Below the pieces are notes generated by a model. That model did no database searches. It saw only the letters and a list, made by a program, of their open reading frames with translations, and was not told the DNA's origin. A stretch of DNA of 64,000 bases, taken from the NCBI RefSeq assembly GCF_036417845.1, contig NC_089980.1:62618501-62682500 (forward strand), in the 5' to 3' direction. The position numbers and the translations under genes are program-made. Source of the stretch: Apteryx mantelli. Taxonomy: Eukaryota > Chordata > Aves > Apterygiformes > Apterygidae. Below, piece by piece: positions 14,001 through 57,964 of the stretch; within the stretch, counting starts at the first letter, position 1, and each line of letters begins with the position of its first letter.

Positions 14001-17000
14001 TGTGGCTTTTTTTCTGTATGATTTTTTTGATTGTATGACATGCAGAGGTCAACTGAAAATGTAGAAGACTTTTTTGCAGTTCTTGATATTAGGCAAGTGT
14101 TTGCACTATTTATTTTTATTGACTGTCAGGTAGGCCTCTTGATTCCCCGCCTCATTTTTCTTTACTGTTTAGCCCTGTGGAGGAATGTCCTGAGGCAGAA
14201 TCTGTACAAGCAGCACATACAAAACGAAAGGCTATCCTTGCCTAGACATGAAATTGATGGGTTTATTGGTTCAGTTATTCCACTGAACTTCCTCTGGCTG
14301 ATCAGAGCTGTCTGGCAGGCTCCAAGAGCTGGAGCTGTAGACTCAGGCCAAGAGAAGTTACATCTTTTTCCATTTCTGCCTAAACCCATTCCATGGCAAG
14401 ACCAAGCCATTTCCTCAGAATGTATCTTGAGCCAAATAAAAGCCAGGCTTGCTGTATTTTTCCTGAATACACCCCTGGGAATGATTTACTGCTTGACTCC
14501 TTTACACCCAGCAATCCTTTTGGGTAGAGGGTGCCAACCGGGGCACTCCAGCCAGCTTGGCACCCTCCTGGGTGGCTCGGCCTGGCATTCACAGGACATG
14601 ATGGGGCAGAAGCTCAGGGACTGGCAGCGTCAGGGAAACCAAGCAGAGGCATTTTACAGAATGGAGACTGCTCCTTCCCACACTGGTCTGCAGGCAGAGG
14701 CAAGACAGAACAGAGGTGACTCATTGAGGTGGCTCAGAGGTGACCTGTGACTCCTTCTCTGAGACAGCTCACGTCTAGAGGCTCTTCTGACCAGAGTTAT
14801 TACAGATGACCAGCCAAGTAAAACAGCCACTGTGGGGCAGTACACAGTATTGATGGGAGCAGAGCTATGGGGTTTAGTCTGGGGTTGCGGAGACTTCACC
14901 TCCCTTCTTTGGCGGTGTGGAGGGGGTTGTTCATTGTCCCAGGAGCTTGGTGGCACAAGCTATTCTGCTGTCTTCTAGAGGGCACTTCTGGCACCAAGTT
15001 GTCCTGGTTAAACTGTACATGCAGCCTGAGCCAAGTTCTCAGATTTTATATTTGAGGAAATGAGGAGTGCTCACACATGAGTTTTGGTGCCACTGCTATG
15101 CAGCGAGAGGTGTGGGAACTAACACATAGGAAAGGTAGTAACATCTCTAGCCATCAGCAAATGGCTTCATCCATATCACCCTGTTAGTCACATAGCCAGG
15201 AACTGCAAGCACTGACTGTAACTTTAGTCATGTCTGTTGCTGCAGCAAGTCACGTCATTTGGTCACTTCTGTTGCCGTAGCCATTTCAGTCTGCTTTGTA
15301 AAGGGAAGTTCAGGTGAACTATTATGATGAGCTGGATTAAAAGATTATCATCCCCACTGTTTGCTGCTGCAGCACAGCTCTAGTGCTTTTACTATTCATC
15401 TGGCCTGTTCTGTAAAATGATTTGGATGAGAAAACAAGCCAATCTGGTAATGGTAAAATATGGAGGGATGGGGAAACAGTATAAAAAGATTGAGGTGATA
15501 ATCTGGGCTCAGGGACAGCTGAAACAATTTATCTGACTGTGATCTAAATCAGGTTGTAGACACCTATTTTCTTTGGAAACAGCAGTAACAGTTTAAAATG
15601 TTACCATTTCCCAACTATCCCTTACAGCACCTATCTGTACAGTGTCTTTCTGCTGGAGACTTCTGCCCATCTAACTGAGCTTCATTAACAGATTGCTTGC
15701 CTGAATGCATGGCTATGAGGTTAGACTCAGCCACAGCAGATGAGGGCTTTTAAACTGAGCCAAGCATCTTTGCGCAGAGGCTGGTATATAGTGCTCACAT
15801 GGTCTGCTCTTTTAAGGGGGTGACAGAGGATTGGAGACAAATAGTCAAATATAGGCAATAATGTCTTAAACCATCAAAGCTGTTTGTGTTGTAAACATCT
15901 AGCCATCCTTTTGTCACTTTAAATTCCAGATGATCTGAACTTGTCTATGTACTTGTAAAAAGAATATTTTAGTATTTAATCAAAGTAGTTTTCCAGAAGC
16001 AAAATGTATTTTAAATGTTTTTGTGGATATAGAATGATTTTGTATATTTCTCTCATATGTCTCTGAAGTTTTCAAAATTGCACATATTAGATGAAAAACT
16101 CAGATGCTGCAGTAGGCAATCATACTGGATTTATTTGGTTGCTCTTGCAAGCCTGCTCCTCTTAAAATACAGAAATTATTAAGTTCTTAAAGTATCATAA
16201 TATGCTTGGTGGTCTGCTAACTTTATGTTAGTACCTGTATAATAGGTAGGAATTCAGATTTTAGGCACTTAAACCAGTTTCTCTGGGATGCAGAGGATAC
16301 ACTGAAATTTTCAGATGATCCAGTCTAATTGCTTATTCTCACCTGTAGGATAACAAATATAGTGCTCAAATACCAGGGGACAAAAAAGAGAGAAACTAAA
16401 GTGTAGTCTGACTTCCCCTAAGAAACAAGTCCTAGCCTATTCTGGCTTCAAACACCTCCCAATAGCTTCCAGTAGGAATATATCTTGAGGCTCGCTAATA
16501 ACTTATGTAACCATAATATTTAGCATATAAGCAATGCTTTTCATTTTTAAAGCTGTTAACAAGCACAAACTCACTACCAGCAAACTGAGGAAACAGATCG
16601 GCATGTGTTGTCACCCTCGTTTTACTTGCAGGGAACTTGAGCACTGCTTTACCTTAAGTGGGTCACACGCTTTGATTAAGTGTTCAGGATTTAGGATGCC
16701 ATTCCCCAGCCTGTGGCTGCTGTCTCACACAGGCTTCCAGTTCTGGGGTGCCTGCAGAGGGCAGCAGCTCCTTTCTTCCTCCTCTCTTCAGAGACATCCC
16801 ACCTCCTTCCACCTGAGGTGGAAAGGGAGGTGGCATGGAGGCTCCTGGCCTGCTCAGCTGTGTGGAACTAAGCCCTGAGTCCCAGTCTTAGCTGAGAGAT
16901 CTCATAGTAATGCTTATCATGATGAAAATAATGATTAATGAGAGAGAACTGTTTTAAATGTGGCATCTTGTATAATAAAACAAAAAAAGAGCTATCAAAA

Positions 17001-18690
17001 TAAGTAATTGAAAAACCCAGGAAAGACTGACGTCCAAAGAAAGCAAAACACAAAAGTTTAAAAAAAGCTTCTCTACTTTCTATAAATATAATGGCTTCTT
17101 CCAGGATTGAGCTGTGCTGAATGTATGCCGGAGTCCACTGGCTTAGGTGGAATGGCAAGGAGTAAGAAACACACTGCAGAATTAGCAGAAATAGAATCAA
17201 ATGTAACCAAATTCATTCACTTTGGAAAACAACTGAACACTGAGATGCTGTGAACAACACTGTGCCTACTGTCTATTACATCACTCCCCATGACTGTTAT
17301 CCTACTCCTTTTTCACAGTCACTGCAGTATTTTTCTCAGTAGACAACTGTGAGACATCAGGTATCAGAGGAAAAAAATGCAGAGTGGCAAAGAGAGTAAC
17401 CTGTGTATGTGTATATGATGGAATTGTGATGCGTAGTTACTCATATTTCTTGGATAACATGACCTGCTAGTGGCTACCTAACAAGTCAGTCCAAGAATGT
17501 CTAGAGTTGCATATTGAAATGATTTTTCCTTCCCTAATAAACCAAATTTAAAATGGAAGCTGTGTGTCTAATTTTCCATTTACTTGACTAAAAATAGTGT
17601 AATTTCCTTTTGTGTTCCCTACACTCATTTTCCTCCTTTTTTCCTCCTCGATTCTAAGACAAACACACCAAATAATAAAAGGCTTGACTGGAAGCCTACT
17701 GAAGCCATTGGAAGTAGTTCCTTGCTGCTGGCTTCAGGTCTTTGGTCTTTGGATAAACAGAGTGCAGAAACTACCTATAGTCAGACTGTTCTGATTAGTC
17801 TCTTAGTTGGTCTCCTTAGCCATACTTGGAAGAGTTAGGTTATGTGACAAAAGGCTCGTCCCCACCAACACAAAGGACCACAGAGACACAATGACAGGTG
17901 GGGAATCCCAATAAACCAGTCAGAGGAAAGGAACCCTGCCTTGGCTCCTCCTGGGACTGTTCCAGGAGAGCCATCAGTCCCACAGGCTAGGTGGGAAACC
18001 CAGCAAACAGTGGGTGAGGATCTCCCCAGGGCACCTTTCAGACTGAGGTAGGTTACTGCCTAGGGGGTAGGGGACTTATGATGGGATGCGGGGGAAGAGC
18101 ATCTTGGGATTGTACAAGACTTATTTTGGGATGGTTAGGGGAGGAAGCACAAGCAGGTAGAGGGAGGGATCAAATTTAATTAAAACCCTTTTCTTCCTAA
18201 ACTGTGTTTGCATATTAAATGAAATTCTAATGCACCTTTTCTATTCAGTAGGAACTTGGCCTAGGTACTGGCGTCTTCTGATTCAAACTTGCATGAAAGC
18301 TTGATTTTTGGCCTGATTTCTTCATAGTACTTCATAGCATTTTCATAGCATTGTCTCTCATTACTCCTTTGTTGCTTTTCCCTTGTTGGCTTGTTCCTCT
18401 TTCCTTTTTTCTAATTATTTACTGTTTTTCAATTCTAATTGTTTACTCTTTTTCCACTTTTTATTTCATTTCTGCTCCTCTTTCTCCACTGTCTTAATGG
18501 AGCAGGAATCGATCAATACTTGTATTACGGTCAAACATTTGCACCCTCCAGGTGAGGATGAATTTAAGGCAAAGCTGTTCTAAGCATTTCTCATTTTAGT
18601 AATCCATTACTTTCCTGGGGGGAGAAAGAGTGTCAGTGATTTAGTTATATGGTTCCCAAACTGCAAGATACAAATAAGTCCTTGAATTTT
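14001..18690. other. Intergenic DNA; contains a 239-codon frame of doubtful meaning
   Basis: No gene recognised. The longest uninterrupted frame of the window (14031-14750, + strand, 239 codons) lies here. Its second half is locally GC-richer, it has no recognisable motif, and overlapping frames are open on the other strand, as expected from base composition. Alignment to the copy B flank (55.06-60.37 kb) is not convincing over this interval. Confidence 0.5.
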
Positions 18691-20200
18691 ACCCCTCTTG
18701 CTATTGTCATTCAGTTTATTGTTGAAGGCTGGTTTTGATTAGCAAGACACCATTAGTTTTATGAGAGTGGTCCAGCTCTGGAAATGATGGCTACAGTTCT
18801 CTGCAGCAATTCTGGGACTTTGCAAATGAAAACAGCTGTATTTGAAAGTCTCTTTTAGGGCTTCATGTTCAAATTCTCCATGGCACTTCTCTCTTCTCTT
18901 TCCATCAACACTGACATTTCAATCTTGAATCATTTTTCCTTTACCTCTCTCATCCTTCTCATTATTTCTAGAAGGGAGAAAGAAGCAGAGGAAAAAGAGC
19001 AGGGCCTGGAACCAAGTTTCCATATACATTAGCTCAGTGGAATGGGCAAGGAAATAGCAAGTAGTTGTAAATTAACTCAGTTAATAAGCAAATACCTCCT
19101 GCTTATGCACGACAGTGTCATTACTGGCATCTTTATTGTTCTGAATCTTATGTTGTTAAACCTTCTTTCCAAGTAAAATGTCATAAGCAGCACTCTTCTA
19201 GTCATGCTCAGAATAGCATGTATTTTTTTAGAAAACTTGTACAGAAATGTAGTAAGATCAAAGGATGAATTGGATCAGTAAAAATTCAGTTTCCATGCTT
19301 TCCATGCCTACTTTATCCTCCATCCTTCTGACTGATCTGAAGACCAAATGAGATGCAGTGGCAAAAAAAGTTTCCATACTGTCTTCTGCCAAAATTGAAA
19401 TATAGTTTCAGATCACATATGTACTTACACTTTATGTTTTTTTGCTGCCTAAGGACAGAAACTGGCTCCCATGTTTGTTATATAATGCTCAGTTAATTGC
19501 AACCACAGTATAATATTTTATAAATTGTAGGCAGAACAATTAGAAGGTACATAGAAGATACATGTGCTTTATTCTCATTTTTGCTTTTACCCCCAGGAAA
19601 TGAAAACAATTTGTGGAGAAGGAAGAGATTTTCTTTGCTGTTACACATTCTTGAACTGTACTTCAGTGATCAGCAACAGATGCACTGAGCATGATATTGA
19701 AGTGCTGTAAGTAAAAAAAGGGTATAACTGTTGAAATTAAAGAGTATCAATAGAAGTTAGCTGTATCTGTGCCGATGCAGTACCTGTGCAGCCTTAAATA
19801 GAGAGATCTCCTGTTCCCTTGAAAGAAGATGATCTTCCTCCTTCCAGACTTCACATGCTGCCTGCTATGGAAAAGACATGAACATGTCTGTGTGTGTGTG
19901 CTTCCATTGGAAAGAAAGTCTGGCTCAAGACATCTTGAAACATAGATAAACTGAATTTGTCCACCTCAGAGATGAGGATAAAATGAATTGCTGTGTATAA
20001 GTAAACTTAGTCTTGCAATGGCAATGATCCTTTGAGATACCATGGTACCCAAACAATAGCTCTAGTTCCTGGCAGCAATGGTTTATTGGCTGTGTTGACT
20101 GACTGTCCTGCCTCTTGCCACAGCTGAGCACATGTGCCTGACCACTCTGAAGCAGTGTAATATAGTAAGCTGGGGAAAAAGAAGGAGAGAGAGAGGCAGA
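18691..20200. repeat. Segmental duplication copy A, block 3
   Basis: Paralogous to about 60370-62050. Shared landmarks are GTTGAAGGCTGGTT / GTTGAAGGTTGGCT followed by GTCCAGCTCTGGA in both; ATTTCAATCTTGAATCA / ATTTCAGTCTTGAATCA; GTTTCCATGCTTTCC / GTTTCCATGGTTTCT; and ATTCTTGAACTGTA / ATTCTTGAACTGAT followed by GATCAGCAACA / GACCAGCAGCA. Sequence is non-coding. Confidence 0.75.
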
Positions 20201-23200
20201 AATCATGGTCATGGTTCACTTGCTTATAGACAGCCTTGGGGCCCAGAGCTCCCTGGGAAACATGTTGTCTTGGGAAAATTGCTCTGGGACTAGCCATGGC
20301 TGAATGAGTTTCTCTTCTTTCTCTTGTTCAAGGCTATGACTTTGTTATACCTGCTGTCCAAAGCAGTTGCCTACTCTGTGGCTAAAACTGGTTATTTAAT
20401 GATCTTGTATAGCAAAAGGTTATTAGCAAGCTCTCTTGATGAAAACCCTAGTGGGAGTCCCAGCATTTGGAAAGTTTTGAAGTCCATGGGACACAGCTGT
20501 GGATTCAGTGGATAAAGAATTAACACTGGAACTTTTTATGATAAACCCTGCCAAAATATGGAAAGACAGACTTGTTATCTGGGAACAACAAGTGAAACTG
20601 CTGGCTGACAAAATATAGGTAGTACAGAACCATCTGCCTCTCATAGCCGAGAACAAACCTGTCCATTTCAGTTCTGGAGAATGGGAAATTTGTACCTCTC
20701 TTTCTGGATTTCCTTGCACTTCTCTCTGCACACAAAAGACTGTGGCTCACAAAAGCTGTGTTGGACTCCCCAAGATAAATTATTTAAAGAAGTTTTTAAA
20801 AAAGCTATACAATGATGCAGTCCTTCAGGCACTGGAATTCATAAAGCTCTCCTACTATTGCTTCTAGGATGTCTGCTGGAGAAATGTATCTCAGAAGCAT
20901 GAGGGGAGGAGGCAAATGCAACACTTAGCCACTAATGATGAATAGTTAGAAGGGTCATTGAAGCTCTTGGGTTTTACCTATTAAACATTCAGTTGAGGTT
21001 AATTATGGAGTCACAATTCATGATAATATCTCAACAGTATGAAAGACACCAGTGCTAGGATAAGATGCTGAGGCCTCATGAAGGCACCTAGAGGAAATAT
21101 CTGAGAGAGCAACATTGGGGAGAGAGACTGAGAGGCTGAAGGAGACCTGGGTCTTCCAGCTACATAGAAAGGAGGTAGGTAAATGTGAGAAACTCTGTTA
21201 AAGAAACACGAAGCTGGACCATGACTGATGTCAATTAGCATCCTTCTGCTAGTAGATGTGAGATTCCATGGAAAAAGGCAGATTATAAGGCTTGCAAACA
21301 GTTACACAGCCTCATAAAATCTGAAGTGATAGGAGTAATTTAAAAATGCTGACTACATTTATATCTGGCAGTTTTCAGTTATTTTTGCAAATCAACTGTT
21401 TAAATTCCAACCTTGCTACTTAAGATCAAAAAAAGGAGTTCTTTATAGGTAATGCACTAGCAGTTTTAATAACATCATATATATTCTAAATAACAGCAGC
21501 ATGCACTATACTTCTCTTTAAGAAAACATGATGGATGATAATGACCGAGAGATCTCAGTGAGCTAACTTAAGATTTACAAGCGTGCATGAGTTTAGACTT
21601 AGGTGCCATGCCTTAAGTAGCAGATATTTTCTTGAGAAAGTACAATCTTTTTATTAAGCAACACATAATAATGGTTTCATAAAAGTGTAAAAAATTACAT
21701 TATTGTGAATTGAGAATTTTGAGATTGTAGTGCAAACAGACCAGGTATTATTCAGTTTATTTTCTTGACACATGTACATTTTAAAATCTGCTCAGCTGCC
21801 AGTACCATATTGCTGAGGATGAAATTCTAACTCCATTGAAGTATGTGACAGCTCCCCTTGACTAGGGTAGGGCCTTGATGATCTCACTGGTGTACACATT
21901 GAGCGAAATGCAGTAGTCATTAGTTTGCCTGCCCTTTTAGCATTTTTATTTTATTTGTGCAGAGGAAAGAAATCCTAATCAGTTAATGATATGACAATAA
22001 TAATTAAATAATAAAAAGAATTAAGTGATCAGTGATAAACTTAAAACATCAAAATAGAAACTCTTCTGACAATATGGATGTATAAGTAATATGGAAGGTG
22101 GGGAAGTTTTGTCAGTGTATGTATGACTGCCACTAGCATGGAGAATTGCATACGTGCATGCTATATCAATTGTACTTCCTGGGTAAGAAGTTTGTGTAAA
22201 AAAACTCCTTAGATGTGGCAATCATCATAACTAATAGTCTGCACCACAGTCCCACAAAGTTCATCACAAAAAGCATCACAGACATGCACAGTCCTGTTTA
22301 AATAAAATATCAAAATGCTGAAGCTTTAGGAGAACCCATAGGTTGCTGGAAGTCTTCCTAGGCATTCAGGTGACTCCTGCCTAGAATGCAAAATCCCTCT
22401 GCGCTACTGTAGAAAACTCTGCCCCAGAGTCTCTTCCTATGCCAGGGAAGGGAAGGTACTTCACTTTTTGTTCTCTCAGCTAAATTCTGCCACCAGGTTG
22501 TCAGTATTCATCCCCTCATATCTTAATGGGGTGGCTGAAGTGTTAGGCTGCTTAGCAATAACAAAGAAGAAAGGCCGATAAAAATAGAAAGACAGCCTAC
22601 AGAGGAGTCTGTGGTCATATATAAAAGCTTGCATTGTGGCACAGAGACTGCTTGACTGCTGTGTCCAAAGAGAGGGTGTGTGGCCACAGTCCCCTGACCA
22701 CAAGCATATGTGGAACTTGATGACAGATCAGTTATTTCTTGTAGTCTTTCAGCAGCAAGCAACAGTAACTAAAAAGGCCCAAATGTTCTTTGTTTTTCCG
22801 ATCTTCCTATTAATGGTTAGCATGTCCACATGGAAAGAGCACTTGCTCAGCACATTCTTGAGAACAGATGAAAGTGAAGTAAGCTCTTTCTCAGTGGGAC
22901 TGCGTACACTGTAGGTGGATTTATCTGATCAAATACAGAGATCTACAGTGTAGATGTCTACTGCTAAGTTCATTACACTAAATTCCTTTTGTAATCAATG
23001 ACAGAAATGACAGTTCCTAGGATGTGACTCACCCTGGAGTAGACAAATATATTTAGTCAGATGAACTGTTTCCAAAGTACCTGTCTCTCCATTGATTGGA
23101 AAGGGTATCTGAGGGGTGACTAATTAGTCACAGACTAGTTAGACATCAGCATTTACCTTGTATCTTACCTTCATCTTAAGTTAGCTAAGTTGAATTCCAT

Positions 23201-24470
23201 TCTGCAATTCTTTTCCCATAGGAACAAGACACTGTTAAGGTTTTCCTGTATCTTCCCCAAGAATGGTGCTGCCATTTGACCTGCTTCTTTGCTGGGGTAC
23301 TGAGTTTCAGTATAAATTTCCCTTTTGGGGAGTCCCTGCTGGACTATACACTTCTCCCTTCCAAACTCTTCCCAGTATCCTATTATTCTTTGATGGCATT
23401 TTTGCAGAACAAGAGGGATATTTTTACCTCAGTAATCTACTTTATGAGGCATTGTTGGTTGTTTTCCACTGTACTGTATCTGAAGGATTCTTCCTTCTGT
23501 AGGTAAAAGCTCCTACTCAGCCAAGGGCATCTGAATCTTTTGAGGCAAAACTCAAAATTTGGACTGTTAAAATGCATACCAGTGGAATCTTCTCCTACAC
23601 TTTTGGTAAGATATCTGCATACTTATTAGTTTATTATTTTAATTCAAAGTTGTTCTCTAGTTTACAGTTACAGGAAATAAAATTCCTATCCCTATCCTTA
23701 AAAAGCTTACAAATTCTCTGCATTCTGTTCCATCTCAGAATGCTAAAGAGAACAAGCCAGCATCCTCCTCTTCATGTTTGCATTGTTTTTCCCATGTAGT
23801 AACCCCCAGATTGACTGTTTGAACTCAGTAAAAAAATCTTACAGTAAAAAAAATCTTATTATTAAAAAATCTTATTTTACTTAGAGTAAAAAAATTAATT
23901 TTTCTGACCTTTTATCCAAAGCTGAAGTCCCCAGGATGTACATTGTCTTTATGCTCATTTAATTTACCTGATATCAGTAATGCCATAAATGCTTGAATAG
24001 CTGAAGTATTTGAGAACACTTGGTATATTCTCAGTGAAAAAGAGCAAAACATTTTGAAATGGTGAAATTAGTTTGTAGAATAAAATATTCATATTATCAG
24101 AGAGCTTTAAATTATTAAACCATGCTTCTTGAAACTTGTTCAAGAAGGTTTCAACCTTCTTCAAAGGATCAAATTTTGAAGTTTGAACTCCCAACTGAAA
24201 CAGGAAATGAGATATGGAGAAGTGGCCCAAGACACAGGGGTATCTGTTTTAGAGCTAGTGGTGGAATCTGTCCCATCCTTGTTCCAAGTGCCAGATGACA
24301 CAACTTCCTGGACTGTTGGGAGTACAAAGAGCTCAGGTCCAAGATACTAGAACGTTTCAGAGAAAAACAGGATTATCTGTTCTATCCCTCTGCCCTACAG
24401 CAGAGCAACTGTTTCTACATCAGTCCTAAGTCATCTTTTCAGACAATCTATTCAGAGCTTTCTTGTTCTT
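20201..24470. other. Intergenic DNA, mostly copy-A-specific, nothing recognised
   Basis: Copy A is about 5 kb longer than copy B between this point and the plasminogen promoter. Open frames reach about 100 codons on the minus strand at 20007-20731, without motif or splice context. There are short A/T-rich direct repeats near 23830-23900. Confidence 0.5.
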
Positions 24471-25000
24471 ACCATGGCAGGTTTTTCTTCATGTCTGTCT
24501 TGAGTCTTTCAAACTTGAATTTAAACTTATCCATCATGAGTACAGAACCTCTTAGAGATTTGAAAGTTGCTATTGTGTCGTCCCACTGTCCCAGAACTGC
24601 AAGTTTTGTTTAAACTACGCAAAACCTATTTCTTCCAGTCTTTCCTCATAGATGATGTTTCAGGATACCTGACCATTTTTAGTCGCCTCTCTCAAACTGT
24701 CTTTTGAAGTGCTGTGCCAAAAGTGGACACATTTTTGATATTAACCCCTCTTCAGCTTATGAAAAACTGGAATATGCAGTCTCTTTTTTGCAAAATTGCT
24801 AGATATTCTCCACTTCATATTTACTTTTTTTTTTTTTCTGGAGAAAAGTAAAGCCTTACTTTTTCCCAGGCCATTCTTCCAGTCTGTCAAGATAATTTGG
24901 AATTCTAATCCTGTCCTCAAATATACTTGTACACAGCCCGGCTTTGAGTCAATTTTAATTATTCCATCGTGCAGCTTATCAGTGGACACTCTAAGTGCTA
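24471..25000 (-). mobile_element. Old CR1/L3-like LINE fragment, minus strand
   Basis: The plus strand reads as the complement of CR1-type LINE sequence: CTTCCAGTCTTTCCTCATAGATGATGTTT, then GACCATTTTTAGTCGCCTCTCT, then GCTGTGCCAAAAGTGGACAC, and further on CTGTCAAGATAATTTGGAATTCTAATCCTGTCCTC. Divergence is high and a T-run interrupts it near 24826. Boundaries are approximate. Confidence 0.65.
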
Positions 25001-25619
25001 GCGAGTCTGGCTGGTAAAGAAATTTGACCTCAAGAGGTCAGGTGCCAGGGCTATTGTGCAGTTTACTGTGTTTTCAGTCCTTCTTTCTTGAAATTGCAGT
25101 GCATCAGGCACAGTTGCACAACAGCTATACACTGGCAGCCAAAGAACAACTGAATCCTTATGTACTGCTGTCTATCCCTCTGTTCAGCTGTTTTTTCCAT
25201 CTGTGATGAGTATAACCACTTCTATCTTCAGTTGACAGCTACTTCCTTGGGCTGAAGCATTTCTTTTCTATCTGTAAAGCTAAGGATTTCCACAAATGAA
25301 AGTCTTGTTTTAAAAGGGCACTGGGACTCCAGGCAGAGTCTGCTTCCAGTGAGACTTTGTACACTACGAGGCTTTGCCAGGTGTTTTGAAATAGTTTTCA
25401 GTTCAAAAACCAACCAAACAAACAAAAAGTCAAACAAACCTGCTGTTAGGAGATCCTATTAGAGAAATTTAGGTTAGACAGAATTCGCTCTAAATTCTGT
25501 GAGATTTCACAGTCTTGCAAATGATAACTTATCCGACTCCTTCCCAATTTACATCAGTCCTTGCTCTCACATGTTTGCACTTTCATGCCATCATTACCAC
25601 AATGTTAGAGCAATGAAGA

Positions 25620-25775
25620 TTAAGAACAGTCTTCCTGCTGGAGTAGTGTGTAGGGGCAAAGAACATACAGTTTTATAATGGAGTTTGATAAATTTTTGTG
25701 TGTGACGGTAAGGTGTGGATCTCCAATTGCAGGGAACTAGATTGAAGGTCCTTTATAATCCTGCATTTCTTATAT
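25620..25775 (+). mobile_element. Possible very old CR1-like 3' end
   Basis: The order GGAGTTTGATAAATTT ... GGGAACTAGATTGAAGGTCCTTTATAATCCTGCATTTCTTA resembles the diverged 3' end of ancient CR1-family elements (GGGACTGGACTAGATGACC ... CCAGCCCTATG type). Weak similarity only. Confidence 0.45.
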
Positions 25776-26168
25776 TGCATGTAACCCTTTCTCTTGTAGA
25801 CTCTGGAGAGTAAGACTTGCCTGTTTAAATCTATTATTCCTTGATTATGATTCTCTCTTGTCTTAACCTGACTGAGAACACTGCTGCAAATACAACTTTT
25901 CCAAAGGAAGGAGTGTCTGGGTAAGGCAAATTGAATTGCTGTTAAAATCAGACTGCAACATGGATGGGCAAACAGGTCTGGCTTTATGATTAGGTAATAT
26001 TGTCCTTAGTTAAACAAAATGAGGCGTAACAATGTCAGAGTAACGTGTTTAGTAAAACAAGAGTGCCTTCACCTTTCCCAGCATTCAGTACAAGCATGTG
26101 AATATTATTTTGTAAGTGCTTACATTCAAGGTAATGTTTGGAGATTAAAAAAATGAAAATGAAACTGA

Positions 26169-26281
26169 GGAAATTATTAACTTCTTTCAACACATCTGTT
26201 TTTTGATGCATAACTCCAGCAAGAATTGATAAGACTGTGCACCGACACACACAACTTCCAGCACCAGCCTGCTGGGCCAAA
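26169..26281 (+). promoter_or_regulatory. Plasminogen-like proximal promoter and 5' UTR, HNF1-like site
   Basis: GGAAATTATTAAC at 26169-26181 matches the HNF1 consensus GTTAATNATTAAC at 10 of 12 defined positions and sits about 100 nt before the ATG. The region from here to the ATG aligns with the copy B promoter (63602-63715): ACTCCAG, GTGCACCGACACAC / GTGCACTGACACAC, CAACTTCCA, and GCTGGGCCAAAATGG are shared. HNF1 is known to drive liver expression of mammalian PLG; its use here is inferred. Confidence 0.7.
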
Positions 26282-26330
26282 ATGGGGATTAGCAAAGCCA
26301 TCTTTCTCTCTCTCTCATTTCTATGCTCTG
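26282..26330 (+). pseudogene. PLG-like exon 1: signal peptide
   Basis: Encodes MGISKAIFLSLSFLCSG with the last codon split after its first base (phase 1), followed by the donor GTAAGA. A short basic start and a hydrophobic core make a good secretion signal. The copy B exon reads MGISKAAFLLLFLLSSG with the same phase and length (49 coding nt). The ATG context CCAAAATGG is identical in both copies. This exon carries no lesion. Confidence 0.9.
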
Positions 26331-28845
26331 GTAAGATTTCTTTGCCTTGCATTTGAATTAGTGAAGTTAAAACCCACTATTTTCAAAATCAAGTTTGTGA
26401 AATCAGGTTCTGATTTTCAGGCTTACTGATCAATCACCACAGTCACTGCAAGAACATCAGACCTATGATTGCTCAGGACTGCTAAAAAAAATTTCTCGTC
26501 TTTAAGAAATATCTTTTGTAGAAGGTGGCACATACATGAAAATGGATACTGCACTCCTAACAAGCTGCTGCAAGTTTCTATTTGATTTAGGGATGAGCTT
26601 AAGATACAGAATTCAAGTTTCATCTGAGTAGCCAGTATTCCAGGGTTTCAGAGACATATAAGCTCCTGAGTTTGGTTTCCTATGAAACACTTCAGTTCCA
26701 ACTACATTTACAACGGGAATCTTGCTTAAGATATTAATTCCTCCAGAGTTCAGGGGTCCCCAAAGCAGCTTTGAACCAGTTATGTGGAGATATAAATTGG
26801 TATAAATATATATTATACATTGTATTTAACATATAAAAGTATATAATATAATGTATATTTTTACCTGAAAAATATTTCTGTTCTTCTGATCCAGTACAAT
26901 TTATTACTAAGATACTTTTTGATTTTTGTGAAAATTGAATACAGAGTACCAAGCTTAAGAAGTCAAGCTGCAATCAAGCTTACATGAAAATTGTTGGTGG
27001 CTGGGACAGTGCTATATATGTATACACTGTTATCCAGGGTAACTTCTCTGTTTATCTGTTTATAGCTACTTTGGGGGAAGGGATATGGTCTGGACAAGGA
27101 CGTCTTTCTGATGTTTTTAGGCTTAGACCATTGAAAGTCTGCTACAAAACCTATTTCAGTTGGGATAAAAACTCCATTTAACTTCACTGAAATGTGGAGC
27201 AGGCCCTGGATCTGTTTATTGCCTCTGTTGCTCTCAAATATTTTGTCGTTTAGCAGCCCTACTTTTAATCTGCTTTTTTTTTTTTTGAAACCCAAGCATT
27301 AAAAAAAACAGCATGAACAAAGGCAGAGGATATTCACTCTTTTCTGTGACTACATTTTCATATGAGGCTTTCTTATTGCTAATTAGAATAGGAGCAAAAA
27401 TAGGCTTTTAGTAGATTAAAATACAATTTGCGGTTGTTTAGATGTTGCAGGATTTGTCTTTCAAAGAAATATAAGCAGATTTATAACAAATGGTTAAACA
27501 ATTTACAACAATAGCTAAACAATATGGTAAAATTTTAAAAGATACATGTTACTTCTAAGCAGATCTGTAAAAGCTTTAGGGATTTGGAGTATATATTCCA
27601 GTAAACACAGTACACAATCAACTTTGATGTAGTATCAGACTGTGTTTTCATTTAGACATTAGATATGTCTATATTTACTGCTGTAGCTGCACTTTTAAGA
27701 TATAGTAACAAGTAACAAGTAAACAAGCAAGTCAATGCTTTTTTTACAGTTATGTAGTAATTCAGAGATACAGTATGACAGAACTATACAGAAAAATGAT
27801 AAACTATAAAGGAATGTGCTGTGTGTGTGTTGGGTTAATAAAATGCGGTTACCGTATTTGATCAGCCTTCTTATTTCTAGTTAATGAGGAATATGGCCTC
27901 AGTGAAAGTGTCTGAAACACTTTGGATTAATGCAAGTTCATTTCTAAAAGAAATATTGTAAAGTGAATAGATCAGTTTACATTTGTGATTGTCCTGTTTA
28001 GTTGTCCTGTGCTTAGAATGGCTTCAAACCAGGCTGATGCATGTTGCTTATCTTTTGAAATCAATTTTTAAATTGATTGTCAAGCAATTGTGTCAAGCAC
28101 ATTTTCCTTTTCCTCCTGCTGTTTGGAGATTCAGCTTAAGTCTCATTCCCACTTGAGTAGGCATTTCACTCAGACTCTCTTATGTTCAGCTTGAACCAGC
28201 TAGAATGCACATTCCTTTATGAGCAAAAAAGAACGAGTAGCGGAACTGGGACAGTTTTGAAGAACACATGGAATTTACGATTAACAGTGGAGAGAATCAC
28301 AGGTGGCTCATAGAATCCATTGCTCTATAATTCTGCAACTGGATGGTGGAGAACTGAAGCCATCAGTATTCTGTCTCACTGTCTTAAGTGCTTCTATGTT
28401 CCTCCTTGCTATCATGTTTGATTACTTCAGAATTTTCCAAATATTTATCCTCATTACCCCTCAGTGAGCCAGGCATTTTAAAGGTAAGGGGCTGAAATGC
28501 AAGGAGACTACTAGTGAGATCTAAAATGTAATAGTGCCTAGTCCCAGGGCAACAGTTGGGAAAACCCCTCTGCCCTGTTTTAAGCTAATATTTGTCTTCA
28601 AAAACAGTACACTGTATTGCTGAAAGCTCTGTCTTTGCTCTGCCTTCTCTCCTGTTCCGTACCATCTATTCAAGCAATGCTATCCTGTGCTGTTTCCAGG
28701 AGACTGAATTTATTCAGAGTTTGCTACCATTAATGCAAAATGAAAGAAATTACATTTTAACGCAAATTCTACGTTGAAAGTGGGATGTAAAGTCACAAAC
28801 AGTCAGAAAAATGCTCATTTTTCTATATTCTTTTTTTTCTTTTAG

Positions 28846-28978
28846 TGCAAGGAAACATCTTAGACAGCTATTGAAAAACAGAGTGAGCTTGGATAAATGC
28901 ACATCAATGGTTTTATAAGGCAAATACCGCAGAAGAATGTGCACCACAATGTGAAGTTGAAAAAAGTTTTACCTGCAG
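28846..28978 (+). pseudogene. PLG-like exon 2: first half of PAN/apple domain, two stops
   Basis: Acceptor TTTTTTTTCTTTTAG, donor TGCAG|GTAATT, 133 nt. In frame with exon 1 it reads VQGNILDSY, stop, KTE, stop, AW..., then EECAPQCEVEKSFTCR, which matches the plasminogen PAN motif (EECAxxCExxxxFTCR) including its cysteines. The stops are TGA at 28872-28874 and 28884-28886. The exon is otherwise well kept, so the stops are true disabling changes and not a wrong frame. The intron before it is 2.5 kb. Confidence 0.9.
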
Positions 28979-30839
28979 GTAATTTAGGTGTGCTGTTTCT
29001 GAATATTCTGCTTTATTTTTTTTTTTCAATGCAACTTTCTAAAGTTTTGTAAGGAATGCAATGGGTATCAAGAAGTGACCACCTGGGAGATGCAGATTAG
29101 GAGAGAATACATGGAAGGAGAGATTAGAAAAACTGTTTCTAACATCAACATGTATTACAGAAAAATATTTTGCTGTTTTGATGAGGAATATAGTACACTG
29201 AAAAATATTTGCGTGAAGATTTCTTCACAACTTTTTCACATATGAACGTGAAAGAAATATGTTATTCAGAAAATGAGATATCAGCAATGATGTGGTTTTT
29301 GCACCTATCACATTGCCATTAGGCCTGAGTATCCACAACGTTATCATGTGTAGAATAATTTCAGTGGCCATCCTGCGTAGAGAAAACAATGAAAGTTGGA
29401 GGTTTTTTTCATTTGTTTATTTGTTTTTCACATGAAAGCTCTATGTCTTTGTTTGTAGGGATATTACTGAGATTTTGATGCCGGGATAGAGCAGGGGATG
29501 GCCAGCCTGTAGCAGTCTCCTTTCATCTTTTTTTCTGTGTTAGTGGGACTTACTGTTACTTGTGCCATCATTAGTATTTCTGGAGCTGACTGTGAGTGGG
29601 GCTGGTGGTGTAATTTAAAGGAAGACCTTTGAATCATAATGGGTGGCTGTCCTCATTGCAGGTCCCTCCTGTGAGGCAGGGGTATCTTCTTTTCTAAGCT
29701 TCAGGAATACTTAGTGTACCACATCCAGAGAATGCTTTTTTGAAAGAGATGAACTTTTTGGATTCTTTATGGTGATATGTTTCTCTATACCCAGATTTAA
29801 TTCAAGGCAACAATAACTTGCTACAGAGTTTCTGAAGCATTTTATAATTTGCAATCATTTTCAAAAAGGTTGAAAACCTAGCATCAGGGAGAACTAGTAC
29901 ATTTTTTTTTAGGGGATGCAACCAGAAGGGATCACAGAAGTCTCTGCTTTTTGATCCCACCCTTCTTTTCAGGCCAGGAGAGGACAAAGAGCTTGAGCAG
30001 CACTTGTGAAATTTGGGGAAAAGGCCTCTGAATGGGTCAAAAGTTTCTGAAGAAGTATTCAGAACACACATTTATCTTTTACAAATTGCCTTTATCTTTT
30101 GTTTGAAGCTGGGTATCTGCTTTGTCCAATATTACCTGTTCAGGCCAAATCACTTGGGCCTTGCATCATGTATATAAATATCCCTTGCATCATGCATATA
30201 AATATCCTAAAACAATGGAAGAATGGTTGAGTTCTTGGGTGTAGGAAATCAGATGAAGAACATATAATTCAGAGATGGGATGATATCTTAATAAAAATGA
30301 TTTGAGAATCAGGTTGATATTACAATGTGGGGAGATTTCCCACCTGTGCATTCATCCATATGTATTGAACAAGATATTCTTAGTCTCCTTTTAAAAAAGC
30401 AACCATAAACATTATACAGTGTTTATAACTTTGTCCACACAAGGCAAAAAGTTGAGCTTAAGTCAGGCTCAATTAACATGATCTAGCCAATGTTGATATA
30501 AATATAAAGGCATCTCATAACATGATACCCAAGGAAAATAACATTAGCTTAGGTTCTGCAGGCTTAGTTGCAATCTAGTCAGTACATAGTCTAGGCAAGA
30601 AACAACATTTTCCAAGACAGAAGAAGGTTCAGAAATGACATAAATATGCTATTAAGAGGTAAAATTGGGTCTGGATTTACAGTGCATAATGACTTCCTGG
30701 TAATTTCTCATGTTCTTAATGCAAATTAAATGCAGGTTAGTTTTCCTCTTGTCACTTTCTAATTTGGATAGAAGGATTACACTACTTAATTCTGATCAGA
30801 TGTTTGGAAAAATTGTTTCTAATGGTGGTAGTTAAACAT

Positions 30840-31014
30840 TCAAACAGGTTACCCAGGGAATCTGTGGAGTCTCCGTCCTTGGAGATATTCAAAACTCAAC
30901 TGCATACGGTCCTGAGCAACCTCATCTGGCTTAGCAGTCAGCCCTGTTTTAACTGGGAGCTGGACTGAGACCTCCATAAGTCTCTTCCCACTTAAATTAT
31001 TCTGTGATTCTCGA
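30840..31014 (+). mobile_element. CR1 LINE 3' fragment in intron 2 of the PLG-like pseudogene
   Basis: About 175 bp of CR1 3' end: GGTTACCCAGGGAATCTGTGG, TCCTTGGAGATATTCAAAACTCAACTG, CCTGAGCAACCT, and the terminal ATTATTCTGTGATTCT. Same strand as the host gene. It is strongly 5' truncated. Confidence 0.85.
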
Positions 31015-31325: not shown

Positions 31326-31432
31326 GGCCTTCCTATTCTTCAGTAAAAATCAATGGTGTTTAACATTGTCTAAAACCTCCAGGACAACAAAGATTTTCAA
31401 AAGAATAAATTCAGTTCTCTGTGAGAAACAAG
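31326..31432 (+). pseudogene. PLG-like exon 3: second half of PAN/apple domain
   Basis: Acceptor CTCAATTTCAACAG, donor CAAG|GTATGT, 107 nt, the same length as the human PLG exon. It joins exon 2 in phase (TGC AG + G) and reads RAFLFFSKNQWC, then LTLSKTSRTTKIFKRINSV, then LCEKQ. This aligns with the mammalian RAFxxxSKxxxC ... FEKK segment. The frame is open and ends in phase 1, the phase at which PLG kringle exon pairs begin. No kringle 1-3 exon follows. Confidence 0.87.
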
Positions 31433-32492
31433 GTATGTGAACACCTGTAATAAGTTTCCTTATGTACTTTGTTCATATCTCTAATTTCCTTTTATTAATA
31501 ATAATGGAATAACATTCACATTTCTGTGGGACTGAATGTCTGAAATATGCTAAATATAACTGATTTGCAAGTGCACAACATCAGTTAGGGGAGACATATG
31601 TAACTTCTGATACTGATTCATCAAAAGTATATTTTGTTTCAGTTTATCTTCTAGAGTGCAAGAAAGGAAAGGGGGAGGATTACAGAGGAACAAAAGACAG
31701 AACTCAGAAGGGTGTGCTATGCCAGAAGGGGGTGGATAGTGCACTCCACAAATCAAAGTATGGTCTTCTCATGTTTGTCTAAACGTTATGATTGATTTTT
31801 TCTGAACTATATATAAATAGTGTGCTTTAAGCAATTTTGCATCACAGATTGTCAAAGACAGATACTTACTGCTGAGTTTAATTTGTAATGAATAATTTCC
31901 TCCTTGTATCTCTCACTCTGAGTTTTAGCTCTTACAAAAAAAAAACAACAGGTCTACTGATTGACAAATTAGAGAGTTCTAGTCTTCCTTTTACATGTAA
32001 CTAAATACAAGAAGATATGAAAAACAAACACGACCAAAGATCTCTGGTGAAAAATGTCTCTGTCTTAATGCATTTGGAGGGGAGGGTGGGGGGTGAAAAC
32101 GGGGATGAAAGGAGAAAAAAGCAGTAAAAGAATAATGATCCATTTTTTTAAATCCTGAACATTAATCTCCTACATCTAACTTATGAAAAATTTAATTTGA
32201 AGAAATTTTAGATCTATATGTGTACCTTTTGATTCCCTAATCCAAACAAATTTGGTGTGCAGAAGTGAAATTTAAATGCAAGTGCTCCTGTCAAGTACCA
32301 TCTGGTGCATGAAGGCTTTCCAGACACCCTTACACATGCTTTCTGGTTTTTATTCTCAAACATTCCTGCAACTGCTTACTATTTTGTCTGATTTTTCTAA
32401 CTCACTTTTACCTCTCTCCTGAAGGTTTTTTTTTATTTTAAATTTAAGCACATAAATAAAATTAAGGGACTGGTTTCTGCTGTTCATTATAG

Positions 32493-32660
32493 ATGATGAT
32501 ATGCCAAGGCAGTCTGCAAGTCCAGAGCAGTGCTATTGAGAGAGAGGCCTGGATTATCCGTGGAACAGCTTCTTTTACTATCACAGGAAGGAAATGCCAA
32601 GCTTGGAATTCAGTGTCGCCACATCATCACAATAGGACGGCAAGCAATTTCCCAAGAGCA
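32493..32660 (+). pseudogene. PLG-like kringle (most like K4) first-half exon, stop plus frameshift
   Basis: Acceptor GTTCATTATAG. It joins exon 3 in phase and gives a linker ([13 protein letters not shown]), then the kringle start CY, stop (TGA 32537-32539), ERGLDY. One extra C at 32558-32559 shifts the frame; after it the reading is [34 protein letters not shown]. This matches a kringle first half. The linker length (13 residues), the CY start and the TGRKCQAW segment favour K4; HNRTxxNFP recalls K3, so a hybrid is possible. The expected donor is gone: TATGTTT follows where GT is needed. Kringles bind lysine residues on fibrin. Confidence 0.85.
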
Positions 32661-34158
32661 TATGTTTATTTTGCATTTTTGTGTTGTTTTAGCCAGTTGT
32701 TCTCACTTTACACACAGTTGCCTTGAAGTAGTTAAAAGTAGAAGGGAATGTCCTTGTTAAAAAAATGACTTTTCATTACTATTTTTCTAAGCCAGAAACT
32801 TTATTATTTGTCCAAGCTTTAAAAATGACCTTTTGGTCTTTTTTTCCACAACATTTAAATTGTGGACTAAACATAAATAAAAAACATTATTTTAAATTGC
32901 CCTTAAAGAATTTAAGAGTTGCCATTACTCTTGAAGAACATATGCAAGAACAGTCATTAAGGCATATGGCAAAATATCTGCCTGCTTTCCAAAGCTGTCT
33001 CTTTATTAATATTTGAGAGAGCTGCGATAGCCTTTAAAGCTGCTTCAGTGAGTAACAAATGGAAGAATTCAACAGCCTAGATATTTACCAATGGCCTGGA
33101 CCATTTTTATATGGGAAAGCCATCACATTGGCTAACAAGTCCACCCTTAGTTGTGCACTGGAATGGAAATGGTGAGACTAATAAAAATATCTCCTTTCCA
33201 GGCTCTGTAACGCTGAATCCTGTCCTTTTCGATCTATCCACAATATATCAGTTTCAGTAATCATCCTGCTGGAGTCCTCTCATCTGTCATTTGCTTCACG
33301 AATCCTTTCAGTGTATCTTTACTGCTTCTCACATAAATCTCTATTCACACTCTGCCTACAGCTCATCTCTTCTTTCTATCCCATCCCAAATCACACTGTT
33401 TTGATCAACTCAATTATTATTTTTGTGAAAGATTTCTGTTTGTGAAACTCTTGGAGATTTTGTCACTCCTCTGATTCAAGATGGAGAAATTATCTGAACT
33501 CTTTAAAATTCTTGGGGAGAAGACAACCATTTCCCTTACTATCCCATCCAACCTTCACTTTGCAAACACTTATGTGAGGAAATGCTCACTGAATTCAGTA
33601 GAACTATTCCTAGATAGTAATCCCTACTCAAATTCACATGCATATGTGTTCACTGGTCCTAAAAGTTAGAAGGAACAATTCTGTTGTTTTCTCAATTTCT
33701 AACACTGGAAAAAGCATTCTTTTTAATCTTTATGGTAAGCTCCCAGTCCTAAAAGATACAATCAGTTTAATTGTGTATTAAAATTAATGGATATTTTCTG
33801 CATTTGCATATATGTTCTAGTGATTGTTAATAAAGATGAATACTACATCATCAAGCATTATGCAGCTAGTCAGAATATTTCTATAACCTGCAGTTAAGAC
33901 TCCACAAACATTATTAGGTTTTATCAAAAATGAAATGGACAGCTATGCTGTTGTACAATATACACCTTGCTGTTTATACCATATCAATAATTACTTATTT
34001 CTTTTTACTTGATAGTTATCTGAGTTCTGTGATATATAACAAAGAAGCAAATCTGTACCATTTCTGTATTTTGCACACCTCACCTATTCTGTGAAATATT
34101 CCCATGCATTTTTTGAAGGCTATATATGAATCAAAGTGCATTGTATTTATATTTCTAG

Positions 34159-34349
34159 GGATCTGAGAGAGAACTATTGCCAAAACCCAGGTGATGATAT
34201 AGCCCCTTGGTGTTACACTACTGTTCCTACTGTGAGATGGGAATATTAGAATCTGCAAAAGTGTGACTATGGAGGACACTTTGTTTCACCTGAACCACCT
34301 TATTCAACATTAGAACCAGGCACTGATATGACTGTTTCGAACATAACAA
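34159..34349 (+). pseudogene. PLG-like kringle (K4) second-half exon with stop at a structural Cys
   Basis: Acceptor TTTATATTTCTAG. It reads [29 protein letters not shown], stop, NLQKC. The stop (TAG 34247-34249) stands where all kringles have Cys; the surrounding WEYxNLxKC is the mammalian K4 signature (WEYCNLKKC). The first acidic lysine-site residue has become Gly (NPGDD for NPDAD). An open linker of about 28 codons follows to a plausible phase-1 donor A|GTAACC. The 3' end is less certain because another GT (AAG|GTGGAA at 34394) also fits the phase. Confidence 0.85.
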
Positions 34350-35718: not shown

Positions 35719-35867
35719 AGTGTATTATTGGCAATGGTAAAGATTATCGTGGTGCAGTCATGAAAACTAGAAGCAGCAGGACTTGTCAAGAGTGGAGTTC
35801 TCAGGAGCCTCATCACCACAGTTATCTCACTCCAGAGACTCATCCAAGATCAGGCCTGGATAAAAAT
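35719..35867 (+). pseudogene. PLG-like kringle 5 first-half exon, intact
   Basis: Acceptor CTCCTTCCTTTACAG, donor AAT|GTAAGC, 149 nt. It reads ECIIGNGKDYRGAV, MKTRSSRTCQEWSSQEPHHH, SYLTPETHPRSGLDKN, matching K5 including the K5-specific longer TPETxPRxGLxKN segment. It ends in phase 0, like mammalian K5, whose second exon also starts at YCRN. No lesion. Confidence 0.93.
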
Positions 35868-40713: not shown

Positions 40714-40807
40714 TATTGCAGGAATCCTGATGGAGATATTAATGGACCTTGGTGCTACACAACAGACCCCCAGAAAATCTGGGAATACTGTGAAACTCCC
40801 AAGTGTG
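40714..40807 (+). pseudogene. PLG-like kringle 5 second-half exon, intact
   Basis: Acceptor TTTTTTTCATTGTTAAAG, donor TGTG|GTAATT, 94 nt. It reads [18 protein letters not shown], then [13 protein letters not shown]. All kringle cysteines, the DGD acidic pair and the PWCYTT core are present. It joins the preceding exon in phase 0 and ends in phase 1. Confidence 0.94.
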
Positions 40808-40849: not shown

Positions 40850-41830
40850 AAGAAAGTACCTCTAGAGTGCCACCAACTCCAGGTCTGCTGTGGCTTTGTT
40901 TCATCAGATCCTGAAAGCATCCAAGCATGGGAATTCCACAGCCTGCCTGGGACCTTGCTCCAGTGCTGCAACACTGGTTGCTGCCACACTTGCCCTGGTT
41001 AATTTTTTTTTTTCCTACTCTCCAAATTGAACTTCCCAAGCCAGTATGTGACCATTGCCCCTTGTTATGTTGTCTGGCATTACCAAGAAGACTTTGTCTC
41101 TGTTGTTTTTGTAACTCCCCTTCAAGTAGCTGTAGGCAGCTGTAGAACCTCACTTTACCCTCCTCTTTGCCAGACCAAACAAACCAAGCTCCCTCAACTT
41201 CTTCTAATGGGCCACATGCTCTAGACCCCTGACCCTCTTGGTAGGTTCAGCTGGATTCTCCTTAGATTCCCTCTTGAACTGGTGACTCAAAACCAGACAC
41301 AGTATTTCAGATGCAGCCTCATCAGTGCTAAACAGAGGGGAACAAAACCTCCCTTTTTTTGCTTCCCGTGTTCCTCTTCAGGTAGTACAGTATGAAGCCT
41401 GCCTTATTCCAACTAAGAGCACGCTGTTGGCTCCTATCCATCTTGCCCTTTCTGTAACCCACAGACAATTTTCAGATCCTCCTCAACCAGTTGCTTGCCA
41501 GCACATGGGCTTCAGGCTTCTTCCACCCTAGTGCAAAACTAGGGGTCTGTGTCAGCCACTTCCCCTACTTTAATTCACCCTCCAATTTGATGATGGTACA
41601 GTCAATGCCTTTGTTCAGGTCAGTAATGAAGGTACTGACAATATGGGTCCCAGTTTTGACCCCCTGGGGCACTCTGCTCATTACTGGCCAGGCAAACAAT
41701 GAGCTACTGATTGCTGTGCTTTAAGCCCTGAAGTCCCCCCAGTTTTCAACTCACCTAACAGTCTACTTGTCCAGCACACAGCTCCTCAGACTCAACTTTT
41801 GCTCTTCCTTTTGACAGTCTTTTGTGACAG
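40850..41830 (-). mobile_element. CR1 LINE, minus strand, about 1 kb, diverged
   Basis: The plus strand reads as the complement of CR1 in the expected order: AGCATCCAAGCATGGGAATTCCACAGCCTG (3' region), then CCAGACACAGTATTTCAGATGCAGCCTCATCAGTGCTAAACAGAGGGGAACAA, then the segment around CACATGGGCTTCAGGC, then GTGTCAGCCACT, and GACCCCCTGGGGCACTCTGCT from the upstream reverse-transcriptase frame. It lies in the intron after kringle 5. The reverse-transcriptase frame is broken. Confidence 0.85.
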
Positions 41831-42456: not shown

Positions 42457-42574
42457 CTCCCTTTCAACAAGAATGTGGGAAACCAAAGAGGAAACCCAAG
42501 CAATGTCAAAGGATTGTGGGTGGATGTACGTCAGTGCCACATTCTTGGACCTGGGAAGTCAGTCTTATGACAAG
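42457..42574 (+). pseudogene. PLG-like activation-site exon (start of protease domain)
   Basis: Acceptor TTTTCATTCTGTAG, donor ACAAG|GTATCA, 118 nt. It reads [39 protein letters not shown]. The CGKP and PHSW segments are plasminogen hallmarks. The zymogen cleavage site is R-I (Arg codon 42510-42512) in CQRIVGGC, where mammals have CPGRVVGGC, so the activation loop is one residue shorter and lacks the Pro-Gly seen by plasminogen activators. The new N-terminus IVGG would still be trypsin-like. Confidence 0.94.
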
Positions 42575-42816: not shown

Positions 42817-42891
42817 TACCAACATGCACCTTTGTGGTGATACTCTGATAGATCCCCAGTGGATTCTTATAGCAGCTCAGTGTTTGGAAAG
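42817..42891 (+). pseudogene. PLG-like protease exon with catalytic His replaced by Gln
   Basis: Acceptor TCTTTATTCCAG, donor GAAAG|GTAAGT, 75 nt. It reads TNMHLCGDTLIDPQWILI, AAQCLER. The invariant AAHC of trypsin-like proteases is AAQC here (CAG at 42878-42880), so the catalytic triad is broken. HGF, a kringle-containing non-enzymatic relative, has Gln at the same position. The oxyanion-side CGGT is CGDT. The splice sites are excellent and the frame is open. Confidence 0.94.
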
Positions 42892-43806: not shown

Positions 43807-43947
43807 GTCATCGACGCCTTCTTCCTACAGGGTCTTCCTTGGACTACACATGGCAAAGGCTGTAGAGCCATCTGTGCAAATCCGAGAGGTTAAGGGTATA
43901 TTCCAGGGACCATACGGGGCAGACATTGCCTTGCTGAAGTTGAGCAG
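43807..43947 (+). pseudogene. PLG-like protease exon with catalytic Asp
   Basis: Acceptor TTATTTCTTACAG, donor GCAG|GTACCA, 141 nt. It reads SSTPSSYRVFLGLHMAK, AVEPSVQIREVKGIFQGPY, GADIALLKLS. The catalytic Asp is kept in DIALLKL (GAC 43922-43924). The PSSYxVxLG and EPxVQ segments are plasminogen-specific. Frame open, phases consistent on both sides. Confidence 0.94.
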
Positions 43948-44339: not shown

Positions 44340-44446
44340 TCCTGCAATGATTGTTGACCAAGTTATACCTGTGTGTTTACCTGAAGAAAATCTGGTGGTA
44401 GGAAGTGGAACAGAATGCTTTGCTACTGGATGGGGAGAAATAAAAG
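44340..44446 (+). pseudogene. PLG-like protease exon (IPVCLP / TGWG segment)
   Basis: Acceptor TCTTCCTTTTCAG, donor AAAG|GTGAGG, 107 nt. It reads PAMIVDQVIPVCLPEENL, VVGSGTECFATGWGEIKG. The IPxCLP and TGWGE motifs are those of plasminogen. Open and in phase (2 to 1). Confidence 0.94.
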
Positions 44447-45485: not shown

Positions 45486-45578
45486 TGGAGGACAGATAAA
45501 CTGTCAGTACTAAGCTCTTGATAACAGTCTTTATTTTTGTAGTTTATATTTTTTTTGTTGGTTGTTTATTTCCAAAAT

Positions 45579-45724
45579 ATACTGGTGGAGAGTATGTCCT
45601 AAAACAGACCAGCTTGCCCATGATTGAAAATAAAGCATGCAATAGCTTTGAATTTCCAAATGGAAGAGTCAAAAAGTTTGAATTCTGTGCTGAGCCCGTT
45701 AATGGTTGCACAGATACCTGTCAG
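45579..45724 (+). pseudogene. PLG-like penultimate protease exon, acceptor lost
   Basis: The coding part reads TGGEYVLKQTSLPMIENKAC, NSFEFPNGRVKKFEFC, AEPVNGCTDTCQ and ends at the donor CAG|GTAAGA. Counting back to the phase required by the previous exon gives 146 nt, the mammalian exon length, but the two bases that should be AG (45577-45578) are AT. A pyrimidine-rich tract with AG at 45541-45542 lies 36 nt upstream and would splice in frame, adding 12 residues (VYIFFVGCLFPK). The S1-pocket Asp before the last Cys is kept (GAT 45713-45715). An extra Cys appears in NGCTDTC. Confidence 0.9.
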
Positions 45725-47158: not shown

Positions 47159-47320
47159 GGAGACAGTGGAGGACCTTTAGTTTGTCTTGTCCAAGACAGG
47201 TTTGTCCAGTATGGAACCACCTCCTGGGGCTTTGGTTGTGCCCTGCCTAAGAAACCTTCTGCCTTTGTCCAAGTTTCTAGTTATACTTCTTGGATTAAGA
47301 ATATAATGGGAGCCAACTGA
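47159..47320 (+). pseudogene. PLG-like last exon with catalytic Ser and natural stop
   Basis: Acceptor TTCTTTCTTCTTTAG, 162 coding nt to TGA. It reads GDSGGPLVCLVQDRF, VQYGTTSWGFGCALPKKPS, AFVQVSSYTSWIKNIMGAN. The catalytic Ser (AGT 47165-47167) is intact in GDSGGP. The pocket Gly in KPGVY is Ser (KPSAF), which would narrow the specificity pocket. Length and C-terminus match plasminogen. Confidence 0.94.
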
Positions 47321-53340: not shown

Positions 53341-53509
53341 CTGACTGCTAACATTGTAATGTATGTAAACGTATGCAGTCATCTGAATTGTTTGGCATTT
53401 ATTTTATGCTAGTGAATTTCAGTCACTGACAAGTGACCCATGACAGGATATCCAGCTGACCACAGTCACTTCTATTAGGGGGAGAGGAGAGGTATATGTG
53501 GGAAATGGT

Positions 53510-57910: not shown

Positions 57911-57929
57911 ACTCTTCTTTGCAGTAACC

Positions 57930-57964
<35 letters not shown>

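Follow-up and report, generated by a model that had tools for sequence, protein, structure and literature searches.

Based on the combined comparison of exons, introns and reading frames, the plasminogen (PLG) paralogue analysed here, copy A, is understood as a decaying PLG duplicate with an internal deletion, and not as a neat rerun of the origin of apolipoprotein(a), apo(a); we put the probability of this reading at about 0.85. The window, the whole stretch of 64 kb that was analysed, is C3:62618501-62682500 (C3 being the contig that carries it) within a 1.504-Gb assembly. Searched by tblastn with human PLG, the query letters having been checked against PDB chain 4a5t, it contains one PLG-like gene, on the + strand from 26282 to 47320.

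Copy A in a tandem array of three PLG copies

A genome-wide kringle search together with DNA comparison places three tandem PLG copies, A, B and C, on one contig, with A in first position. The search, in which only the best candidates were scored, returned 59 kringle matches in the genome and 23 on the contig of the window, the latter divided by position into 10 in B, 10 in C and three in A; it missed the K1 and K4 5' half-exons of A, and its 36 matches on other contigs are unsorted. Of the 56 DNA matches between copies, those considered span at least 150 columns. Comparison of the window with itself shows the upstream flank of copy A repeated ahead of a second exon 1 at 63716. The features of the window are as follows.

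26282..26330, + strand, exon 1, encodes the signal peptide MGISKAIFLSLSFLCS; phase 1 at its end, GT donor
28846..28978, + strand, exon 2, first PAN exon; stops at 28872-28874 and 28884-28886; 3-bp gap relative to B and C
31326..31432, + strand, exon 3, second PAN exon; open, ends in phase 1, donor GT
31643..31757, + strand, K1 5' half-exon; AG and GT present, phase 1 in and phase 2 out, open
31839..32192, no strand, deletion junction zone of 354 bp; matches neither B nor C at the thresholds used
32193..32492, + strand, K3-K4 intron remnant; aligns to C upstream of the K4 exon of C
32493..32659, + strand, K4 5' half-exon; in-frame stop 32537-32539, insertion of 1 bp near 32558, donor AT instead of GT at 32660-32661
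34159..34325, + strand, K4 3' half-exon; TAG at 34247-34249 at a kringle Cys, AT for the donor GT at 34326-34327
35719..35867, + strand, K5 5' half-exon; open, AG and GT present
40714..40807, + strand, K5 3' half-exon; open, AG and GT present
42457..42574, + strand, protease exon 1, with the region of the activation site; QRIVGG retained
42817..42891, + strand, protease exon 2; Gln (AAQC) at 42878-42880 instead of the catalytic His, a change also seen in B
43807..43947, + strand, protease exon 3; ADIALL, catalytic Asp kept
44340..44446, + strand, protease exon 4; open
45579..45724, + strand, protease exon 5; acceptor AT instead of AG at 45577-45578, frame preserved if an AG 12 nt downstream were used
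47159..47320, + strand, protease exon 6; GDSGGP kept, stop codon
63716..63764, + strand, first exon of PLG copy B, next in the tandem array; the remainder of B lies beyond the window

The domain order of A is that of PLG (signal, two PAN exons, half of K1, K4, K5 and six protease exons), its exon phases are as in B and C, and it lies in a tandem array with both of them, C having the catalytic triad and the R-IV activation site. The gene is a tandem paralogue of the PLG family, additional to B and C, and its place as one of three copies with PLG exon order and phases bears out the first-pass annotation in calling it a PLG paralogue. Intergenic sequence at 7777-26408 is homologous to 51466-63842, mostly collinear and 60-78% identical in pieces, and marks the unit of tandem duplication. 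Copies of a dispersed repeat, CR1-like by its 3' end, lie at 5230-5714, 30807-31007, 54429-54924 and, on the minus strand, 41009-41445, one of them within the intron that precedes the second PAN exon of copy A. No Pfam family was found in the 10 longest of the 57 listed open reading frames and nothing in Rfam and tRNA scans of the window; a search for protein motifs of possible neighbouring genes had five matches, none convincing.

Copies B and C have 19 exons each, with GT and AG at every intron and no internal stop, and encode 817 and 802 residues, respectively; the end of the K1 3' exon of B was set at a later GT, chosen to keep phase. Copy C is taken as the canonical PLG from its catalytic triad and its activation site, QRIVAG. 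Copy B (C3:62682216-62711370) is open, has five kringles, is without the activation site and carries His57 to Gln and Ser195 to Ala, the first of these changes (H57Q) being common to A and B. Of the 17 informative sites in the K5-protease part, 11 join A with B, three join it with C and three with human, and the tree of that part joins A with B at 86/91, below the starred level of the tool. Grouped in this way, A and B probably descend from a copy in which the catalytic histidine had been lost once, before they separated. Exon identities form a mosaic, K1 and K4 of A being nearer to C and protease exons 2-4 nearer to B, from which gene conversion among the three copies appears likely and the grouping of A with B is not firm. 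The duplications are old, given a pairwise dS of 0.60-0.67 among the three copies (codons with gaps dropped). Promoter and exon 1 are 97.2% identical between B and C over 851 columns (63485-64333 versus 104710-105557 of the joined region; window 63485-64000 onward) and the rest is about 60-81% alike, which suggests recent gene conversion or a local duplication at that place.

An internal deletion that begins inside K1

The interval between the second PAN exon and K4 extends from 31433, the first base past the PAN exon, where its donor GT stands, to the base before 32493, where the K4 5' half-exon begins behind its acceptor AG. The first-pass annotation had regarded it as free of motifs. The exon-to-exon gap is real, but it holds the K1 5' half-exon at 31643-31757, and tblastn, the PDB search and the match to copy C together rule out a motif-free gap. 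Searched with human PLG by tblastn, the half-exon has K1 as its best match at an E value of 8e-8, with K4 next at 0.026; K1 is also the best domain in the PDB search; a tree of kringle 5' halves, with 18 sequences, puts it together with the K1 halves of human, B and C at 98/91; and the exon with its flanking intron (31608-31838) is 77.9% identical to the K1 exon region of copy C over 235 columns. One exon out of K1-K3 is thereby recovered in the locus, a finding that the first-pass annotation had itself set against its reading.

Five exons are missing from A, namely the K1 3' half and both halves of K2 and of K3. When these five exons of B and C were searched against the window, 142 and 159 matches at E values up to 10 were obtained and none outside the exons of A at E < 0.05; the matches at E < 0.05 fall on the known K1, K4 and K5 exons of A. 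A location of the K1-K3 exons of A elsewhere on the same contig was rejected on the best-scored candidates of the genome-wide search, whose 23 kringle matches there sort by position into B, C and A; a displaced exon may nevertheless lie elsewhere. From the K1 to the K4 5' half-exon the distance is 735 bp in A; the corresponding figure for C is 4,504 bp and that for B 5,207 bp. The match of A to C ends at 31838, which is 74 bp past the K1 exon of C, and resumes at 32193, 474 bp past the K3 exon of C; the counterpart of 31839..32192 in copy C is 4.1 kb with the K1 3' half, K2 and K3. The breakpoints are within the internal intron of K1 and the K3-K4 intron.

The kringle that follows the deletion had been described as K4-like, and rightly so: among the 18 sequences in the tree of 5' halves, the four from K4 form a group at 98/97, and the flanking intron agrees, the intron upstream of K4 in A aligning to the one that separates K3 from K4 in C. 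The tree of 3' halves, with 17 sequences, gives the K4 group only weakly (78/85), and the row of A in it is long. K3 as the next kringle was ruled out by the 5'-half tree and the intron flank, and also by tblastn with human PLG, in which K4 scores higher for both halves (52.0 versus 44.7 bits and 58.9 versus 51.6 bits).

Introns between kringles are in phase 1 and those inside the kringles K1-K4 in phase 2. The earlier claim that the junction keeps phase 1 is correct for the outer junction, where the second PAN exon ends in phase 1 and K4 starts in phase 1. The general argument built on it, that removal of whole kringles preserves the frame, is sound; it is not applicable here because the K1 half-exon ends in phase 2, so that its splice to K4 shifts the frame and stops at once. 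The proposed removal of K1-K3 in whole exon pairs did not take place, since the number of exons gone is odd and the breakpoints are in K1's own intron and the K3-K4 intron. A hybrid K1-K4 kringle formed by skipping of the first K4 exon would be in frame, but meets the stop in the second K4 exon.

Lesions and uneven decay of copy A

Copy A has four in-frame stops within its 224 N-terminal codons, one 1-bp insertion and three losses of splice sites (two donors, both in K4 and both AT, and one acceptor, AT at protease exon 5), and neither B nor C has any such disabling lesion. A transcript of all 14 exons would stop after 25 residues. Judged from its sequence, full-length A as it stands cannot encode a PLG-like or apo(a)-like protein, and the locus would make no full-length protein. 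It departs from an active plasminogen in the exchange of His for Gln in the triad, in its stops and in its broken splice sites.

The decay is uneven along the gene. Changes private to A, counted at codons that are the same in B and C (for A, 108 of 224 in the N-terminal and 137 of 324 in the C-terminal half), are N 34 and S 14 from exon 2 to K4 (p = 0.39 versus neutral), and N 20 and S 19 from K5 through the protease (p = 0.0025, below the neutral expectation); direct contrast of the two halves by Fisher test is borderline, with p = 0.077. Permutation between the halves gave 0 of 2000 for dN and p = 0.0225 for omega, yet the halves overlap in their bootstrap ranges for omega on A (N-terminal 0.45-1.51, C-terminal 0.21-0.55, codons with gaps dropped). 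Changes by codon position are biased to the third in K5-protease (12/11/22%) and flat in the N-terminal half (20/22/18%). K5-protease has no stop in 323 codons, where neutral evolution over the whole branch, half of it or a quarter of it would lead one to expect about 8.6, 5.2 or 3.0 (P = 0.000, 0.002 and 0.051); the four stops of the N-terminal half compare with 5.6 expected if neutral (P = 0.33). Among the residues common to B and C, copy A retains 17/17 Cys, 9/9 Trp and 164/200 overall in the C-terminal half, versus 11/12, 4/5 and 101/149 in the N-terminal half, but glycine is no better retained (16/20 versus 8/10). Indels per 100 aligned bases, figures that partly fall on the branch of the other copy, are 0.73 in N-terminal exons, 0.37 in C-terminal exons and 4.57 in introns when A is compared with C, and 0.32, 0.83 and 4.22 when it is compared with B. 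The absence of stops and the subneutral changes in K5-protease, together with the paucity of exon indels, speak for a long coding history, with part of the gene perhaps still coding. For most of the time since it arose, or at least much of it, copy A was thus probably a coding gene, and its N-terminal half probably lost constraint first.

We propose that a duplicate already without the catalytic histidine gave rise to copies A and B. An internal deletion of about 4 kb relative to C, in one event or several and with its breakpoints in two introns, would have taken the second exon of K1, K2 and K3, and the first PAN exon and K4 would have gained their stops, the 1-bp insertion and the losses of splice sites. 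This order of events is the one that we infer for the decay of A.

Alternative explanations

Copy A might instead be a short gene, encoding a secreted pseudoprotease with K5 as its only kringle, in which exon 1, or a new first exon, would be spliced to K5 and the N-terminal exons would be rotting as intron. The end of exon 1 and the start of K5 are both in phase 1, and exon 1, K5 and the protease would give one open frame to the native stop, provided that protease exon 5 starts 12 nt downstream; the third-position bias, the permutations of dN and omega, and the retention of Cys and Trp likewise favour the C-terminal half. However, exons 2 and 3 and the K1 half-exon keep AG and GT, and would therefore have to be skipped or bypassed by a new first exon, and the acceptor of protease exon 5 is lost. 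The contrast of the halves is borderline, glycine retention and the overlapping omega ranges set the C-terminal half no further apart, and compared with B its exons carry more indels than those of the N-terminal half (0.83 versus 0.32 per 100). Late decay of a once-whole gene would leave an open C-terminal half just as well. We consider the short gene unlikely, although it is the best placed of the alternatives.

Loss of the whole exon pairs of K1-K3 while the gene was functional, to yield a PAN-K4-K5-protease protein in parallel to apo(a), is less probable still. It is consistent with the phase 1/phase 1 outer junction, the correct identity of K4, exon indels that are fewer than intron indels and the probable long coding history. 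Opposed to it are the persistence of the K1 5' half-exon with both of its splice sites and an out-of-frame splice to K4, the proportion of changed sites in that half-exon (9/66 at codon positions 1 and 2, versus 68/302 in the other N-terminal exons), which makes it no more decayed than its neighbours and speaks against a long period of skipping, and a K4 in which either half is interrupted by a stop, one base pair is inserted and both donors are dead. Least credible of all is a normal PLG copy whose missing exons are an assembly artefact: only a single assembly was compared, but neither the 64-kb window nor the 143.5-kb joined region contains any N, the stops, insertion and splice-site losses reside in four other exons (exon 2, both K4 halves and protease exon 5) independent of the deletion, and the aligned introns of A, diverged by 30-32% from B and C, show that A did not come about by mis-joining of one of these two. 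The decaying duplicate with an internal deletion is accordingly the reading that we retain.

Relation to known PLG-family genes

LPA is without the PAN domain, and both PAN exons are recognisable in copy A. According to PMC7613587, apo(a) is a translated plasma protein in which K1-K3 are gone, K4 is multiplied, and K5 persists together with a protease that is inactivated. Like LPA of primates, as described there, copy A is a PLG duplicate that adjoins PLG, lacks an intact K1-K3 and has a dead protease. Unlike LPA, it retains half of K1 together with the PAN exons, its K4 is single and broken, its frame is lost, and it has stops and dead splice sites; the parallel to apo(a) drawn in the first-pass annotation therefore fails on clean loss, on frame, on the number of K4 and on the absence of PAN. 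A better comparison is human LPAL2, a PLG-family pseudogene that flanks LPA in the cluster and is transcribed in liver (PMC7613587); its exon content differs from that of A, and the two would be of separate origin.

For birds, section 6 of PMC6337849 gives two PLG copies, and the legend of Fig. 4 in that paper names the extra inactive gene PLG-2; the bird copy is not outright called inactive there. Copy B is perhaps PLG-2, and copy A, unlike PLG-2, is a further copy, internally deleted and broken. A third, internally deleted bird PLG copy is not named in the literature searched. The same section of PMC6337849 describes PLG copies of coelacanth with one kringle, no PAN and no catalytic activity. 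The open C-terminal half of A would be alike if it were made, although those are reported genes and the layout in A is an inferred one.

The tempting story of convergence on LPA is corrected by the half of K1 that persists, in the wrong phase. The array, with two copies that share the lost catalytic histidine, indicates that dead-protease copies of plasminogen arose in this lineage too. Should the short K5 pseudoprotease prove true, it would represent another stripped kind of PLG beside apo(a) and the one-kringle forms of coelacanth, and it would stand in an array with the canonical C and with B, a dead copy that has five kringles.
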